Shown here one piece after another: positions 1 through 7,225 of a DNA stretch of 64,000 nucleotides. The notes under the pieces are model-generated. The model did not search any database and was not told the DNA's origin. It saw nothing but the letters and a program-made list of their open reading frames with translations. Every line of letters starts with the position of its first letter. Within the stretch, counting starts at the first letter, position 1. Position numbers and translations under genes: made by a program. The stretch is taken from NCBI GenBank assembly GCA_002085445.1, contig NBMI01000016.1, forward strand, positions 1 to 64,000, given 5' to 3'. This DNA comes from Candidatus Parabeggiatoa sp. nov. 2 (GTDB lineage: Bacteria; Pseudomonadota; Gammaproteobacteria; Beggiatoales; Beggiatoaceae).

Positions 1-1911
1 AAACTGATCAAGGTTATGCGCTATTTAATGTGTTTAGTCACAGTATTACCCTTGTCATTATGTTGCCAGCGACGATTTGTGCCGGCATGACACTGCCATT
101 ACTCACTTATTATTTAATCTCCAAGGGATATGGTGAAGGTTCGATAGGTGGCATTTATGCCGCCAATACACTGGGAGCGATTATCGGGATTGCCCTTGGT
201 GTGCAAATTATCATGCCGGCGTTGGGTGTTAAGAACTTAATCACCATAGGAGGTGGATTGGATATTCTGCTGGGTTTGGCGCTCCTGTGGTATGCGGGTA
301 AAGGATTCAATAAGATACGCTGGAGTTTTGTTGCGACAGCAAGCAGTGCTATTTTGATAGCCAGTGTTATCTGGGTGGAATTAGATCCCGTAAAAATGGC
401 ATCAGGTGTGTTCAGACATGGAGTCATTAGTGAGGATCGGCAAGTGATATTCCACAAGGATGGCAAAACCGCTTCTATTGATTTAATCCAATCCAAATCA
501 GGAAAACTGACCATTAGTACGAACGGTAAACCCGATGCATCGATTAGTCAAAAAAACCCGTCAGCAGACGAACCGACTATGATCTTGCTTGCCGCTTTGC
601 CGTGGGCCATTCACGATCAAGCAAAAACCGTGGCTACCATAGGCTTTGGCTCTGGAATGACCAGTCATGTCCTATTATCCATCCCATCAATCGAAAGAGT
701 TGATACCATTGAAATTGAACCGGCTATGGTAGAAGGCGCTAAAGGTTTTGGTGAGCGCGTAGCCAATGTTTTCAACGATCCCCGTAGCCATATTCATCTT
801 GAAGATGCCAAGGCATTTTTTACTAACCACCAAAAAAAGTATGATATCATCATTTCCGAACCTTCAAACCCGTGGGTTGGTGGGGTAGCGGGACTGTTTT
901 CTCAAGAATTTTACCATCAAAGCACTGTCAACCCATTTTGAAGACTACGCCATCTATTTTTCGGCGGAAGGCGATCTACTGATTATTGCCAGCAAGCACG
1001 GTAAAGTGGGTACACCTAGCGACAAGCTATTTGATATACCTGAATTAGCGGCAGAGCTGACTCGCATAGGCATCTTTAACCAACAAGATATTTTGCTACG
1101 CAAAGTGGGTAGCAAACAAATCCTTGGGCCGCTGTTTAATTCATACAATATTGTGGCCAATTCTGATTATTTCCCCGTTCTGGATTTGGGCGCAGTGCGG
1201 ACGCGGTATCTGGAGAAAAATGCACTAGAGTTGCACAGATTGCGTTTGGTGGCAGCACCCTTGATTGAAACCTTGGAAAGCCAACCTATTCGCACTGCAC
1301 CTTTGTCCATTAACGAAAACATCCATTTACGGATTGGAGAGGCCGCACGGAAAGCTATGGTTATCCACCAATATTTTAAGTGGGTGACGGACAACCAAGT
1401 GCCACCGTCTTTGCAGATGGACGGAAACACCGTCGCAACGGTTCGTAATGTAAGAACTCTCCATCACCAGCAATGTCCTTCCGTTGAAAAGGAAGACGAA
1501 TGGTTTTCTTTTGAAATGAAAGAAGGTTGGCTACCTTACTTGCATTTTCTAGCCAAAGATACTTTGCCCTATTTGTCACCGACAGAAATGGAGATTATTT
1601 GGGCCGATATCGAGGCCGCCCCCTGTTTTACTCGTTTACCGGAAAATATCCGTCACTGGTTCAACTTGTATAAAGCGGTAGGCAACCGCGATTTTGAGCA
1701 AGTTTGGCAATTTTCCAAACTGTTGCTCCCTGACGGGAAAATTCAAGCGTCGGAAAATAACAACTATTTGTTAATGGTATCCATGTTGGCTCATATCGCT
1801 TTGAAGCGTTATGAAGCTGCGCTGGCGTTATTGAGGCGGTATAATCGGCGAGCGGAACCCCCTATTGAGATACGATTGCTTGGCACTATTGCGGCACAAC
1901 AGCGTTTGTGA
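1..1911 (+). pseudogene. Broken, 5'-partial membrane protein with spermidine synthase-like domain
   Basis: The frame is already open at the left edge, so the 5' part lies outside the window. The first segment (to the stop at 939-941) has hydrophobic helices (SITLVIMLPATICAGMTLPL, then TLGAIIGIALGV) followed by a SAM-methyltransferase-like fold typical of spermidine synthase: glycine motif IGFGSGMTSHVLL, acidic strand end DTIEIEP, and the signature IISEPSNPWVGGVAGLFSQEF. Reading resumes in another frame at about 919 with KALSTHFEDYAIYFSAEGDLLI and runs to 1911. In this family roughly 30 residues normally separate the SQEFY region from the ALxTHF region. They are missing here, so the break looks like an internal deletion plus frame change, not a single-base slip. 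Without the whole synthase fold it should be inactive. The substrate of such fused transporter/synthase proteins is generally unknown. Confidence 0.75.
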
Positions 1912-2128
1912 CGAGTTGACTGGAATGCCTTCGCCCCGAAAAACGACAAGGATTGTTTATGAGCAAGGATAATCCCGGCTTATATTTAATCCTTGTCGTT
2001 CCTTTTTTTGATCGTAACGGATGAAAGTTGATACCCTATAAATTGGCTTTTTGCTAAGTTTTAAAAGGGATGGTATTTGTGGGAAACGCGCTGGGAACAG
2101 ATACTATCTGGGGTGATGAAAATTGTGA

Positions 2129-2170
<42 letters not shown>

Positions 2171-2397
2171 AATTGTGAAGCTTTGACGCAAGAGAGATTT
2201 TCTGGTTATTTAGACTACCTGATTTAGGGGCCATAAAATGTTTTGAATGGTTTCAAATTGAGTTATGGCCCCCAATTGCGCCTCATTAGCCGTAGTTTTT
2301 GTAGGTGTTTTTATGACAACGAGAGCATCTCGAATTTTGATAACGCCTAATCTCACCTGTTTCTCTTACATATCAGAACATTAAGTTAAGCTATCCA

Positions 2398-2504
2398 AGT
2401 ACAACGGATACGCTTTCCGAAACGGATTGGGGAAATTCATAATTTTTGTAACCTTATGATTTTTTGACTTTTTTTATCCGTTAATTTCGAGTATCCGTTG
2501 TACT
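2398..2504. repeat. Short inverted-repeat element, agtacaacggata ends
   Basis: Perfect 13-bp terminal inverted repeats, agtacaacggata at 2398 and tatccgttgtact ending at 2504, enclose an AT-rich core. The same end sequence occurs at 7832, 35391-35556 (full element), 56304 and 57548, so this is a dispersed family. No coding capacity. Confidence 0.75.
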
Positions 2505-2593
2505 ACTTTAATAAAATAAGTCAGTGATTTTTAGATTTTTTTTTCATTTTTAATTCGTATAGCAAAGCTTCCCTTCTGTTTGTTCCTCAGCCT

Positions 2594-2684
2594 GACTCCA
2601 AACTAAAGTTTGGACTCCTGCCAAACTAAAGTTTGGACTCCTGCCAAACTAAAGTTTGGACTCCTGCCAAACTAAAGTTTGGAC
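2594..2684. repeat. 23-bp palindromic tandem repeat (ccaaactaaagtttgg)
   Basis: Four copies of a 23-bp unit whose core ccaaactaaagtttgg is palindromic and could form a hairpin. Single or diverged copies lie near 4650, 6840-6900, 8050-8140, 35580-35640, 40570-40650, 41430, 42070-42100 and 43010-43107, usually just downstream of genes. This makes it the commonest intergenic motif of the window. Confidence 0.85.
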
Positions 2685-2732
2685 GAATTTAAGACTTATG
2701 TTACCCGTCAAAACAATGTTGACAGACTACTA

Positions 2733-3001
2733 ACGTGAGTTCGACTTTTCAATAACTTATATAAATCTTATGTTAATCAAGTTGTTGATTACAATTAATT
2801 GATTAAAAACACATTTTTATTAGTTAAGATACCCTTAGCATTAATACGTGAATAACCCTTATTTGTGGGCCATCAACTGGAATGAACCAGTACAGCTTAG
2901 GTGTTTTGTTTTTAACTGATTTAATGATGTCATTATCACTAAACAATTGATATAACTAATAATTTTATAACCGGCCTTGATATTTAAAGTCGAACTCACG
3001 T
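2733..3001. mobile_element. MITE-like element, family 1, copy a
   Basis: A 269-bp non-coding element with inverted ends: acgtgagttcgactttt on the left, aaagtcgaactcacgt on the right. TA dinucleotides flank both ends (2731-2732 and 3002-3003). The interior includes a stretch near 2865-2900 (ctggaatgaaccagtac) that is shared with the 58.4-kb copy. An inverted copy lies at 4754-5024, and the ATPase/nuclease gene pair sits exactly between them. TA flanks and size suit a non-autonomous derivative of a TA-targeting transposon. No transposase is present in the window. Confidence 0.8.
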
Positions 3002-3010
3002 TACTAGAGT

Positions 3011-3532
3011 TTAATTGTCATCTACCGTCCAATACTTATGTGTTGCCAGACTATTCTGATCAACTACCAATGGGTGGGCATCTATGGCTTTTAGTCGCTG
3101 CTTCAGTTTCTGTTTCACATTCGCCGGGTTTATCGCCTTGGGAAACAATTTAGAATGCTTAGCTGGTTGTTCCATATGTAAAACCACACGGATACTTCTT
3201 AAATGTTCTTGTAGTGCCAACGTGGCAAACTGTTTTTCATCCTGAACATTCGCATTAACTTTTGCCGCAACCAACCCAGCCAACGTGTCACGAACCTTGA
3301 AGGCAATTTCATCGCCAATATCTACCGGTTTGGTTCGGGGGTGGGCACGATAATCCTTAATTTCGATCAACCAGGTAGTGTTATTGGTGACACAAAGAAT
3401 ATCGACGGCTTTGGCGGAGCCACAGGTATTTTGGAACTGGTTGCGATAAAAAGACCAGTTATCGTATTGACTGGCACAACAGTCTTCACAAAAAGTAAAT
3501 TTCAACTTACCTTCTATAATAACTTTCTTCAC
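3011..3532 (-). CDS. PD-(D/E)XK nuclease-like partner of AAA ATPase
   Basis: A 173-residue protein with an early Cys cluster ([12 protein letters not shown]) and a core [21 protein letters not shown]-like segment at about residues 42-62, which fits the D-x(n)-ExK pattern of PD-(D/E)XK nucleases (Asp in AVD, then EIK). The rest is helical and basic, ending about 10 bp from MITE copy a. Its start overlaps the end of the upstream ATPase frame by 4 bp (3529-3532), so the two are translationally coupled. ATPase plus small nuclease pairs of this layout are common among anti-phage systems. I cannot match it to a named one. The nuclease assignment rests on the motif only. Confidence 0.6.
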
Positions 3533-4567
3533 GCCGATTCTCCTGCCATAAACCGATCAGACTGTTGAAGTTCCTCATCCAACAACATTAGCGGATCAAC
3601 CTCTTCTATTGAATGACCCTGATGGACATTCACGCCCTGTTCCGTCTGTTCCAAAGCAAAATAGCGTTGCTTTACTTTTTTGAACGGTTTGTTAGCAGAA
3701 AGAATTTCTAGTTCACGCACAAAAAACAAGTTATGGGTTGCCACGAAAACCTGTATGCCATTGTTGCATAGATGCAAAATGGTACTCGCTACTAGGCGAA
3801 TTAACTTAGGATTAAGATTGGTTTCCGGCTCATCCCAAAACAGGCAGCCTTTATCCAATAGGGAACCGGTAGAAATGAGTCTTGCTACCATAGCCAGTTT
3901 TCGCAATCCTTCTGCGAGCAGTGGCATCTCTATATTGCCGGTGCCAGCGAGCTTTAAATAAAAACGACCATTTTTATCCAGTATAACACTACCGCCCATC
4001 GCTTCTTCCAAGGGTTGCAACAATTTTTTAACCACTTTTTCTCTTGGGCCTTTCAGCAATGGCGCCCCAAGTAGTAAACAGATATCTCTATAAGTTTCTT
4101 CAAATTCGAGGTAGTGGTTTTCGTAAACTGAAACAAAACTAGGATAGATGGTTAACCGGCGACTTATCCTGCCATGTTGAAGGTATTTTTTGAAGGGTGA
4201 CTTCAGATTTACTCCGTGTGGCAAAACTAAAAGTCGTCTCTAATAAATCATCCTCAAAGAAAAGTGAAATTGTACATCGCTTTCGACCTTGTCGCAAGCG
4301 GCGTGCCATGCGTCCAAGTGATTCTGGTCGTATAACATTAATGAGTTTAGTGGCTAATCGGGTTGCAAGCAGTGATTTTGTTGGAACAGTGGCGTTCGGC
4401 TTTTTTCCTTCTGCCGCGCTGACTGATAATACCGAGTAAGCCAGTTTCAACAAGAGAGATTTACCCGTGCCGTTTTCACCGATAATGACATTGAGTCCTG
4501 ATGCAAAATCCAGTTGTGCTTTTGGAAATGCAGTAAAGTTTTCTACGGAGAGTTGCTTGAGCATCAT
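3529..4567 (-). pseudogene. AAA (ABC-type, AAA15/AAA21-like) ATPase, frameshifted
   Basis: Two overlapping frames together spell one ATPase of about 350 residues. The upstream frame (from 4567) has the Walker A region NVIIGENGTGKSLLLKL near residues 27-43. The downstream frame (to 3529) has [14 protein letters not shown], a signature-like region ([17 protein letters not shown]), Walker [13 protein letters not shown] and the switch His in VFVATHNLF. The change of frame lies between about 4150 and 4175, where homologues usually carry a short P-T/S-R motif, so a few residues may also be lost. The start is set by a TAACTGA heptamer run immediately upstream (4573-4610); the alternative is the second of two adjacent Met codons. 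Coupled to the nuclease-like gene. The frameshift would separate Walker A from Walker B unless it is a sequencing error. Confidence 0.75.
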
Positions 4568-4572
4568 TTGCC

Positions 4573-4610
4573 TTATCAGTTATCAGTTATCAGTTATCAG
4601 TTATCAGTTA
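4573..4610 (-). repeat. TAACTGA heptamer array before the ATPase start
   Basis: About five copies of taactga, read on the minus strand, end a few bases before the ATPase start codon. The same arrangement (array directly before ATG) is seen for argG and for the kinase at 36043. Such repeats are described as abundant in marine Beggiatoaceae and have been proposed to be regulatory. Confidence 0.85.
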
Positions 4611-4753
4611 TATTTCACAGCGTTTTCGAGCGAAGCAGAAAGGAGTCCAAACTTTAGTTTGGCAAAATTCGTTCAGGAGCAATATTAGCTGCTGTACCAG
4701 TACTCTGTCAATGTTCTATTGACGGGTTTTAGTCGTCGGCCAGTTTTATACTT

Positions 4754-5024
4754 ACGTGAGTTCGACTTTAAATATCAGTGAGTTATAGAATTATTAATTT
4801 ATATCAAATTAGTTAGTTATAATGAATTTTAAATCAATCAGTTAAAAAAACAAGCTTTACTGGCTCATTTCATTCTATGGCCCACAATTTTCCGGTTATT
4901 AACGTATTAATGTTAAGGGTTTAATAGTCAAAAAAAAAGATTTTTTTTTAACTAATTACTTGCAAACTCTTGACTCTTGATTAATATAAAATTTATATAA
5001 CTTATTGAAAAGTCGAGTTCACGT
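4754..5024. mobile_element. MITE-like element, family 1, copy b (inverted)
   Basis: A 271-bp element in opposite orientation to copy a, with ends acgtgagttcgacttta and aaaagtcgagttcacgt. The right end is followed by TA; the left by tt, so the flank is not perfect. The core is AT-rich with a long A/T run near 4930-4950. Together with copy a it brackets the ATPase/nuclease pair like a composite element. The remaining sequence to 5180 shows no gene. Confidence 0.78.
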
Positions 5025-5180
5025 TAATAAATAGAACGTACAGATGCTGCCTTTTTAGAAAGGCATAAGACGGTAACGAAAATCTGCCTAAATATTTACC
5101 AAAGGCACTCAAAAATGCCTATAACAACTCACCCCAAAGGCTAAATCGGCAACCACAATTACCAATTACCAAACAAAGAC

Positions 5181-5546: not shown

Positions 5547-5624
5547 GTACAGCAGATTGACGGATAAAACCGATTTTGGTTAGTACAGCGGCTTGACGAA
5601 ATCAACGGATTTCTTGTTTGATAG

Positions 5625-5684
5625 CTGATAACTGATAACTGATAACTGATAACTGATAACTGATAACTGATAACTGATAACTGA
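5625..5684 (+). repeat. TAACTGA heptamer array before argG
   Basis: Eight to nine perfect tandem copies of taactga end 6 bp before the argG ATG at 5691. No Shine-Dalgarno sequence is seen between array and start, so the array occupies the place of the leader. Copy number of such arrays can vary by slippage, which could change spacing or expression. Confidence 0.9.
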
Positions 5685-5690
5685 AAAACT

Positions 5691-6823
5691 ATGAGTGAGA
5701 TAAAAAAAGTTGTTTTAGCCTATTCGGGCGGCCTCGATACTTCTATTATTCTTAAATGGTTACAAGACGAATACCACTGCGAAGTGGTTACCTTTACCGC
5801 CGACATCGGACAAGGCGAAGAACTTGAACCAGCCCGTGCTAAAGTACCATTTACGAGGGCGAATATCTGCTCGGCACATCCATTGCGCGTCCATTGATTG
5901 CTAAGCATTTAGTCGAAATTGCTAATCAAACCGGGGCCGATGCCATTTCGCACGGCGCAACGGGGAAAGGTAATGACCAAGTCCGTTTTGAATTAGGCGC
6001 TTATGCCCTAAAACCAGACATCAAAGTCATTGCGCCTTGGCGCGAATGGGATTTAAATTCACGCAAAAAGCTCTTAGCTTACGCTGAGCAGCACGGCATT
6101 CCCATAGAAATGAAACGCGGCAAACAATCGCCCTATTCAATGGATGCCAACTTGCTGCATATTTCTTATGAAGGTGGCCCCCTTGAAAATCCTTGGCTGG
6201 AGCCAGAAGAAGAGGTATGGCGTTGGACAGTTTCTCCCGAAAAGGCCCCCGATAAGCCCACAACGCTAGAATTAGAATTTGCCAAAGGCGATATTGTCGC
6301 CATCGACGGCCAAGCCATGATGCCGGCCCAAGTGTTAGCCCACTTAAATAAAGTCGCCGGCGAAAACGGCATTGGGCGACTCGATTTAGTGGAAAACCGC
6401 TATGTTGGTATGAAATCACGCGGTTGCTATGAAACCCCCGGCGGCACCGTCATGCTTAGAGCACACCGCGCCATAGAATCGATCACGTTAGATCGAGAAG
6501 TGGCCCACCTCAAGGACGAACTCATGCCTCGTTATGCCAACCTCATTTATAACGGCTACTGGTGGAGTCCTGAACGGAAACTCTTACAAGAATTGATTGA
6601 TGCTTCACAAGTCAATGTCAACGGCAAAGTTCGTTTGAAGCTCTATAAAGGCAACGTCATTGTTACCGGGCGCACTTCCGATAACAGTCTTTTTGATACC
6701 AGCATCGCCACCTTTGAAGACGACGAAGGGGCCTATAATCAAAAAGATGCCGAAGGGTTTATCAAACTCAACGCGTTACGGATGCGAATAGCGGCGCGAC
6801 TAACACGGAATTCAAACCCTTAG
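5691..6823 (+). pseudogene. argG: Argininosuccinate synthase with internal deletion and frame break
   Basis: ArgG joins citrulline and aspartate with ATP in arginine synthesis. The first frame (5691-5897) has the family start [18 protein letters not shown] (ATP pyrophosphatase P-loop) and [17 protein letters not shown]. The second frame picks up at about 5853 with [19 protein letters not shown] and continues with the expected [23 protein letters not shown] and the C-terminal [15 protein letters not shown], ending at 6823. Between LEPARAK and YEGEYLL the family normally has about 35 residues (ending FRANAxYEG). They are absent and the frame changes. Everything else is well conserved. An assembly or sequencing fault is possible, because arginine synthesis should matter to this organism; otherwise the gene is dead. 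Confidence 0.9.
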
Positions 6824-7225
6824 GTTTGACATGGAGTCCAAACCTTTAGGTTTGGACGGATTTAAGGGCACTGCCAAACTCAAGTTTGGACTCCTGCCAA
6901 ACTCTCCTTCACACCCTCGGAGTGCATGTTTTCTTGCCAGTTGCCCTGAACGTTCTATTAAATCGGTATTAACTTCTACAACATCTACTTTTTCCCATTG
7001 TTCCTGAAATGTTGTTATCATTGCCTCAAAATCTTCTTCACTTATGCGTTGTCCGCGGTAAGCTCGTGTCAATGTGGCAATCATTTCCGCATAAGTCACT
7101 GCCGAGGTTGCAAAAATATTCTCTTCATCGGGCGGGTATTGGAGAATAAAATGTTGGATTCTCAAAGTACCCTCTTCATTGAGGAAATATTTCACCCACG
7201 CTGAGGTATCAAGGAAAATAACCAT
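6812..7225 (-). pseudogene. VapC-like PIN toxin, C-terminus replaced by repeat sequence
   Basis: Residues 1 to about 100 are a typical VapC PIN ribonuclease: MVIFLDTSAWVKYF with the first acidic residue, SAVTYAEMIATL with the second, and ARKHALRG before the expected DAxHLA motif. At that point (about 6905) the frame enters the palindromic repeat family (caaactcaagtttgg), giving a foreign tail. The third/fourth acidic site is lost, so catalysis is unlikely. It overlaps the end of argG by 12 bp on the opposite strand. Its antitoxin lies 2 bp upstream. Confidence 0.8.

Follow-up and report, generated by a model that had tools for sequence, protein, structure and literature searches.

A HEC-02 operon of an ATPase and a putative nuclease, flanked by independently inserted MITEs, in Candidatus Parabeggiatoa

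The gene pair and its surroundings

Within the 64,000-nucleotide stretch of DNA analyzed here (contig NBMI01000016.1 of Candidatus Parabeggiatoa sp. nov. 2, hereafter the window), two adjacent genes on the same strand encode an ATPase of the AAA15/21 class (ABC/Rad50-like), which is split over two overlapping minus-strand open reading frames (ORFs), and a small nuclease-like protein. MITEs in inverted orientation lie on either side, and the features of the locus are as follows.

2733-3001, plus strand: left MITE, 269 bp, with the target-site duplication (TSD) TACTA at 2728-2732 and 3002-3006
3011-3532, minus strand: HEC-02 nuclease-like protein, 173 aa, GTG start; putatively PD-(D/E)XK/NERD-type, with D44...E57-x-K59
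3529-4224, minus strand: HEC-02 ATPase, C-terminal ORF, 231 aa, with Walker B/D-loop and the switch His of an ATH motif
4139-4567, minus strand: HEC-02 ATPase, N-terminal ORF, 142 aa, with Walker A GENGTGKS
4155/4156, minus strand: frame-break junction in the ATPase, at which the window lacks 23 nt that relatives have (alignment to the related loci L041 and L042)
4573-4611, minus strand: repeated TAACTGA heptamers just ahead of the ATPase start codon
4754-5024, minus strand: right MITE, 271 bp, of another subfamily, with flanks TACTT and TAATA and an intact TSD absent

The first-pass annotation of this DNA had described a coupled AAA15/21 ATPase and a 173-residue protein with a D...EIK motif between two inverted MITEs, and both ORFs, their motifs and both elements were recovered. 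Its statement that the pair fills the space between the MITEs holds on the nuclease side, where the stop codon lies 9 bp from the left element, but 186 bp separate the right one from the start of the ATPase. This interval includes five TAACTGA heptamers, which stop just a few bases short of that start; a longer array of the same repeat (5619-5687) likewise comes to within a few bases of the start codon of argG. TAACTGA-type repeats upstream of start codons have been described for marine Beggiatoaceae (PMC4679880), and on this ground the host would be placed in that group. A separate repeat occupies positions 2598-2684, as tandem 23-bp units containing CCAAACTAAAGTTTGG, and is found many times in this genome and in its congeners.

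The ATPase forms a single uninterrupted frame in relatives. For the frameshift in the window, decay, reversible inactivation and error had all been proposed; the break itself was confirmed, and reversible inactivation found no support. Two neighboring genes are also frame-broken in comparison with the sister species, namely the methyltransferase gene (3-1911), which is short by 89 nt at about 916, and argG (5691-6823), which is short by 88 nt at about 5845. Because three out-of-frame losses thus fall within 5 kb, one of them in a core gene, assembly or amplification error is about as likely as decay. We give even odds to the reading in which such an artefact produced the lesion and the organism itself has an intact copy: a search of the organism's own genome showed no second argG, and a core biosynthetic gene would hardly be lost, but the deletion lengths differ (23 versus 88 and 89 nt), and with a genome completeness of about 91% another argG copy may be missing from the assembly. 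A wider check at 10-22 kb revealed no clear further small deletion.

Family membership, gene coupling and genomic company

Both proteins match the HEC-02 models of PADLOC-DB 2.0.0. The 173-residue protein matches PDLC04145 (HEC-02A; E 9.1e-78, 258 bits, residues 3-171), and the two ATPase ORFs are complementary halves of the single model PDLC04146 (HEC-02B), the N-terminal ORF covering profile positions 1-130 of 344 (E 1.7e-46) and the C-terminal ORF positions 138-341 (E 1.2e-109). The ATPase also carries Pfam matches to AAA_21 (E 3e-12 in the C-terminal ORF) and AAA_15, its Walker A, Walker B and switch-His motifs are conserved, and the HEC-02A model is matched by all 21 aligned nucleases. 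The module, which had been taken as uncharacterized, is therefore already listed as a candidate system. HEC denotes Hma-embedded candidate, from a 2024 preprint by Payne et al. (doi 10.1101/2024.01.29.577857), cited here through PMC12988326 and PMC11411939; among the papers searched, none with an experimental test of HEC-02 itself was found. As an aside on the database, the A and B labels appear to be swapped between its HEC-02 model sets (PDLC04145/04146 versus PDLC04213-04229), PDLC04145 (A) being the nuclease and PDLC04213/04214 (A) matching the ATPase.

In each of the 23 related loci examined, the nuclease gene comes immediately after the ATPase gene in the same orientation. The same order is seen on plasmids of Paracoccus and Pseudanabaena, and the pair also occurs on one contig of a viral collection, next to a lysozyme-like ORF and among further genes of phage-like character (translations read by eye); a search of phage records gave no match, and a scan of viral contigs with the ATPase of the type found on contig C374 of the organism's own genome found nothing. 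Among genome contigs, the closest match is a Methylobacter metagenome-assembled genome (66% identity), whose locus reads HmaB, ATPase, nuclease, HmaC, which is the defining HEC arrangement, as the name implies. Other relatives have PtuB (L048) or PDC-S01 (L041) nearby, and on the Paracoccus plasmid the pair is close to genes of type ISP restriction-modification and of toxin-antitoxin systems. Beside the window copy itself, no defence gene was seen. On the proposed check of whether homologues lie in defence islands, several stand near HmaB/HmaC, PtuB or PDC-S01, and several copies are located among housekeeping genes. The description of a coupled two-gene module of candidate-defence type, made of an ATPase and a PD-(D/E)XK-like protein, agrees with the invariant pairing across the 23 loci and with the relatives beside defence genes.

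Two related loci have peculiarities of their own. In the Methylobacter locus, HmaB (1337-4906) bears an in-frame insertion resembling a REP-associated tyrosine transposase (read by eye), and at L045 (G028:C280, 559-3259) the ATPase-nuclease pair is followed in tandem by another ATPase of HEC-02 type, at which point the contig ends.

The organism's own genome holds two more pairs, on contigs C374 and C402, giving three copies in total. The C374 pair is complete, and its neighbors carry TIR and nSTAND1 domains; in the C402 pair, the ATPase is complete and the nuclease is shortened to 152 aa. Of 321 genomes sampled from the class, the one that contains the window was alone in having the nuclease. 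As a further member of a known candidate family the window locus is ordinary; it places HEC-02, with its invariant two-gene pairing, in three copies in a large, MITE-rich, sulfur-bacterium-like genome.

For the small protein, an alignment of 21 homologues shows D44, E57, K59, K79 and E121 (numbered as in the window protein) to be invariant. Pfam NERD is matched weakly by the window protein and by 13 of the 21 homologues, and Hjc weakly by four of them. A structure model built from five sequences (pLDDT 73.4, pTM 0.75) was used for structural comparison, an earlier four-sequence model having been poor (pLDDT 51). The best matches of the predicted model are Upx (Z 5.7, rmsd 4.3, 126 aligned) and FokI (Z 5.2, rmsd 4.2, 125 aligned), with all Z scores below 8; Hjc, BspD6I, EcoT38I, Can2, LmuA, HamA and Avs4 rank lower at low Z, and many PD-(D/E)XK enzymes appear among the further matches, likewise at low Z. 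Foldseek with the same model gave no match below E 0.001, and the nuclease profile gave no sequence match among solved structures up to E 1. Since the structural matches are weak, the case for the fold is a joint one, in which the motif, the NERD/Hjc-like sequence similarity and the predicted topology, taken together, support a PD-(D/E)XK-type nuclease.

MITEs and the question of mobility

The terminal repeat of the MITE family, ACGTGAGTTCGACTTT, occurs about 260 times in the 8.45-Mb genome (270 matches versus 11 for a reversed control), and the family has more than 100 copies. Genome-wide spacing was estimated by simulation, not by counting: random placement of 100-260 elements yields 1-8 inverted pairs at the spacing of the window or closer, so with some 260 terminal repeats chance alone should produce a few brackets of this kind. 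Closely spaced MITE pairs elsewhere in the genome surround a nucleotidyltransferase-like and a transglutaminase-like ORF (translations read by eye). In an alignment of 28 copies, the left and right elements, which are 78% identical, fall into different subfamilies, the left grouping with copies elsewhere at 94-97% identity and the right with another group at 91%. Most complete copies have 5-bp target duplications, and the left element has a perfect one, TACTA, at its inner and outer ends. Folding of the left MITE halves as RNA showed nothing unusual.

Additionally, the family is absent from the other HEC-02 loci fetched. A congeneric pair, from the sister species, with 84% nuclease identity lies in a different place among different neighbors and has no MITE on its nuclease side (its contig ends inside the ATPase). 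The proposed look for empty sites did yield flanks that lack HEC-02, namely CZB-argG in genomes G001 and G002 and, in G003, the methyltransferase, but their neighbors are rearranged and a clean empty site was not found.

The first-pass annotation had proposed that the pair is carried or captured by the MITEs. In its strongest form, the 2.3-kb unit would be a composite transposon that used the outer terminal repeats, with a transposase supplied in trans, to bring the HEC-02 pair here. The near-intact outer terminal repeats of the inverted elements fit such a unit, as do the outer flanks TACTA and TAATA, which agree at 4 of 5 positions; we nevertheless regard it as very improbable. A composite transposon would be marked by near-identical elements and by a target duplication confined to its outer ends; here the elements differ by 22% and belong to separate clades, and the left one has a TSD of its own, inner as well as outer. 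No such MITE accompanies the other fetched HEC-02 loci, and comparable pairs should arise by chance and do surround ordinary genes. From copy number, subfamilies, TSD and the absence from other HEC-02 loci it follows that the two MITEs are bystanders, inserted beside the operon independently; independent arrival, the outcome that the annotation had named as contrary to its proposal, is largely what the left TSD and the 78% identity show.

Inverted MITEs flanking a gene pair are accordingly weak evidence for a mobile module in such genomes, and copy number, subfamily and TSD should be checked first. A highly repeated MITE is also known from another giant sulfur bacterium, the hupL MITE of Ca. 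Thiomargarita nelsonii, with matches on 260 of 439 contigs, which is described with a 10-bp direct repeat and a 19-bp inverted repeat (PMC4853749). The window family is similar in its abundance but has 5-bp TSDs in place of the 10-bp direct repeat, the two having been compared by description only.

Movement of HEC-02 pairs as a naked two-gene cassette, by an unrecognized route, seems unlikely. In four comparisons between closely related pairs (84-93% identical), nucleotide homology breaks off at the operon ends or no more than about 70 bp from them, and the C374 pair and its counterpart on contig C27 of G002 are 92% identical with differing neighbors (both flanks read in this comparison). In Pseudoduganella aquatica, the pair has rng on one side and, on the other, a 431-bp repeat of the 3' end of rng with 98% identity to it (4438-4868 and 6514-6944), an arrangement that suggests insertion with duplication. 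Ordinary genes of the genus, such as the CZB gene, show similarly sharp homology edges, and fast-evolving spacers together with rearrangement may explain those of the operon.

Taken together, we place at about 0.88 the probability that the two genes form an operon of HEC-02, which is known as a candidate system against phages, and that the MITEs are independent insertions with no part in its function or spread.

Putative function and comparison with known systems

By analogy with Septu and other defence systems that pair an ATPase with a nuclease, sensing and gating would fall to the ATPase, and the nuclease would be the effector. The PtuA/Rad50-like ABC-type ATPase may use its ATP cycle to sense a cue of infection and then free or activate the partner PD-(D/E)XK nuclease, which would cut phage or host DNA and thereby stop the infection; nuclease activity, trigger and outcome are all inferred. 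Because the ATPase is interrupted in the assembly, the window copy would be inactive if the assembled sequence is correct, and the pairs on C374 and C402 could supply the function.

A role as a toxin-antitoxin or DNA-repair module, and not in anti-phage defence, would suit the Rad50/RecF-like ATPase, the Hjc-like similarities of the nuclease and the several copies among housekeeping genes. We consider it unlikely in view of the Hma embedding and the nearby PtuB and PDC-S01 in relatives, the plasmid and phage-like carriage, and the patchy distribution described above for the nuclease within the class.

The ATPase profile matches PtuA of retron Ec78 (E 1.7e-12) and Rad50 among solved structures. 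Septu (PtuA/PtuB, including the retron Ec78 PtuA) resembles the window pair in its layout, an ABC-type ATPase followed by a small nuclease, as well as in the ATPase profile. However, PtuB is of the HNH type, whereas the window partner has D...ExK and matches HEC-02A and NERD but no PtuB model, and the window ATPase is shorter (about 350 aa). PARIS (AriA/AriB), Gabija (GajA/GajB) and the OLD-family systems likewise join an AAA15/21-class ATPase to a nuclease effector. Their nuclease domains are of the TOPRIM type, and Gabija has a helicase too, whereas neither a TOPRIM domain nor a helicase was found in the window pair. The closest correspondence is to HEC-02, whose two models are matched near full length by the window proteins in the same gene order, and whose nearest relative here, in Methylobacter, is Hma-embedded; unlike that arrangement, the window copy lies outside Hma, its ATPase is frame-broken, and a Beggiatoaceae-type TAACTGA leader is present.
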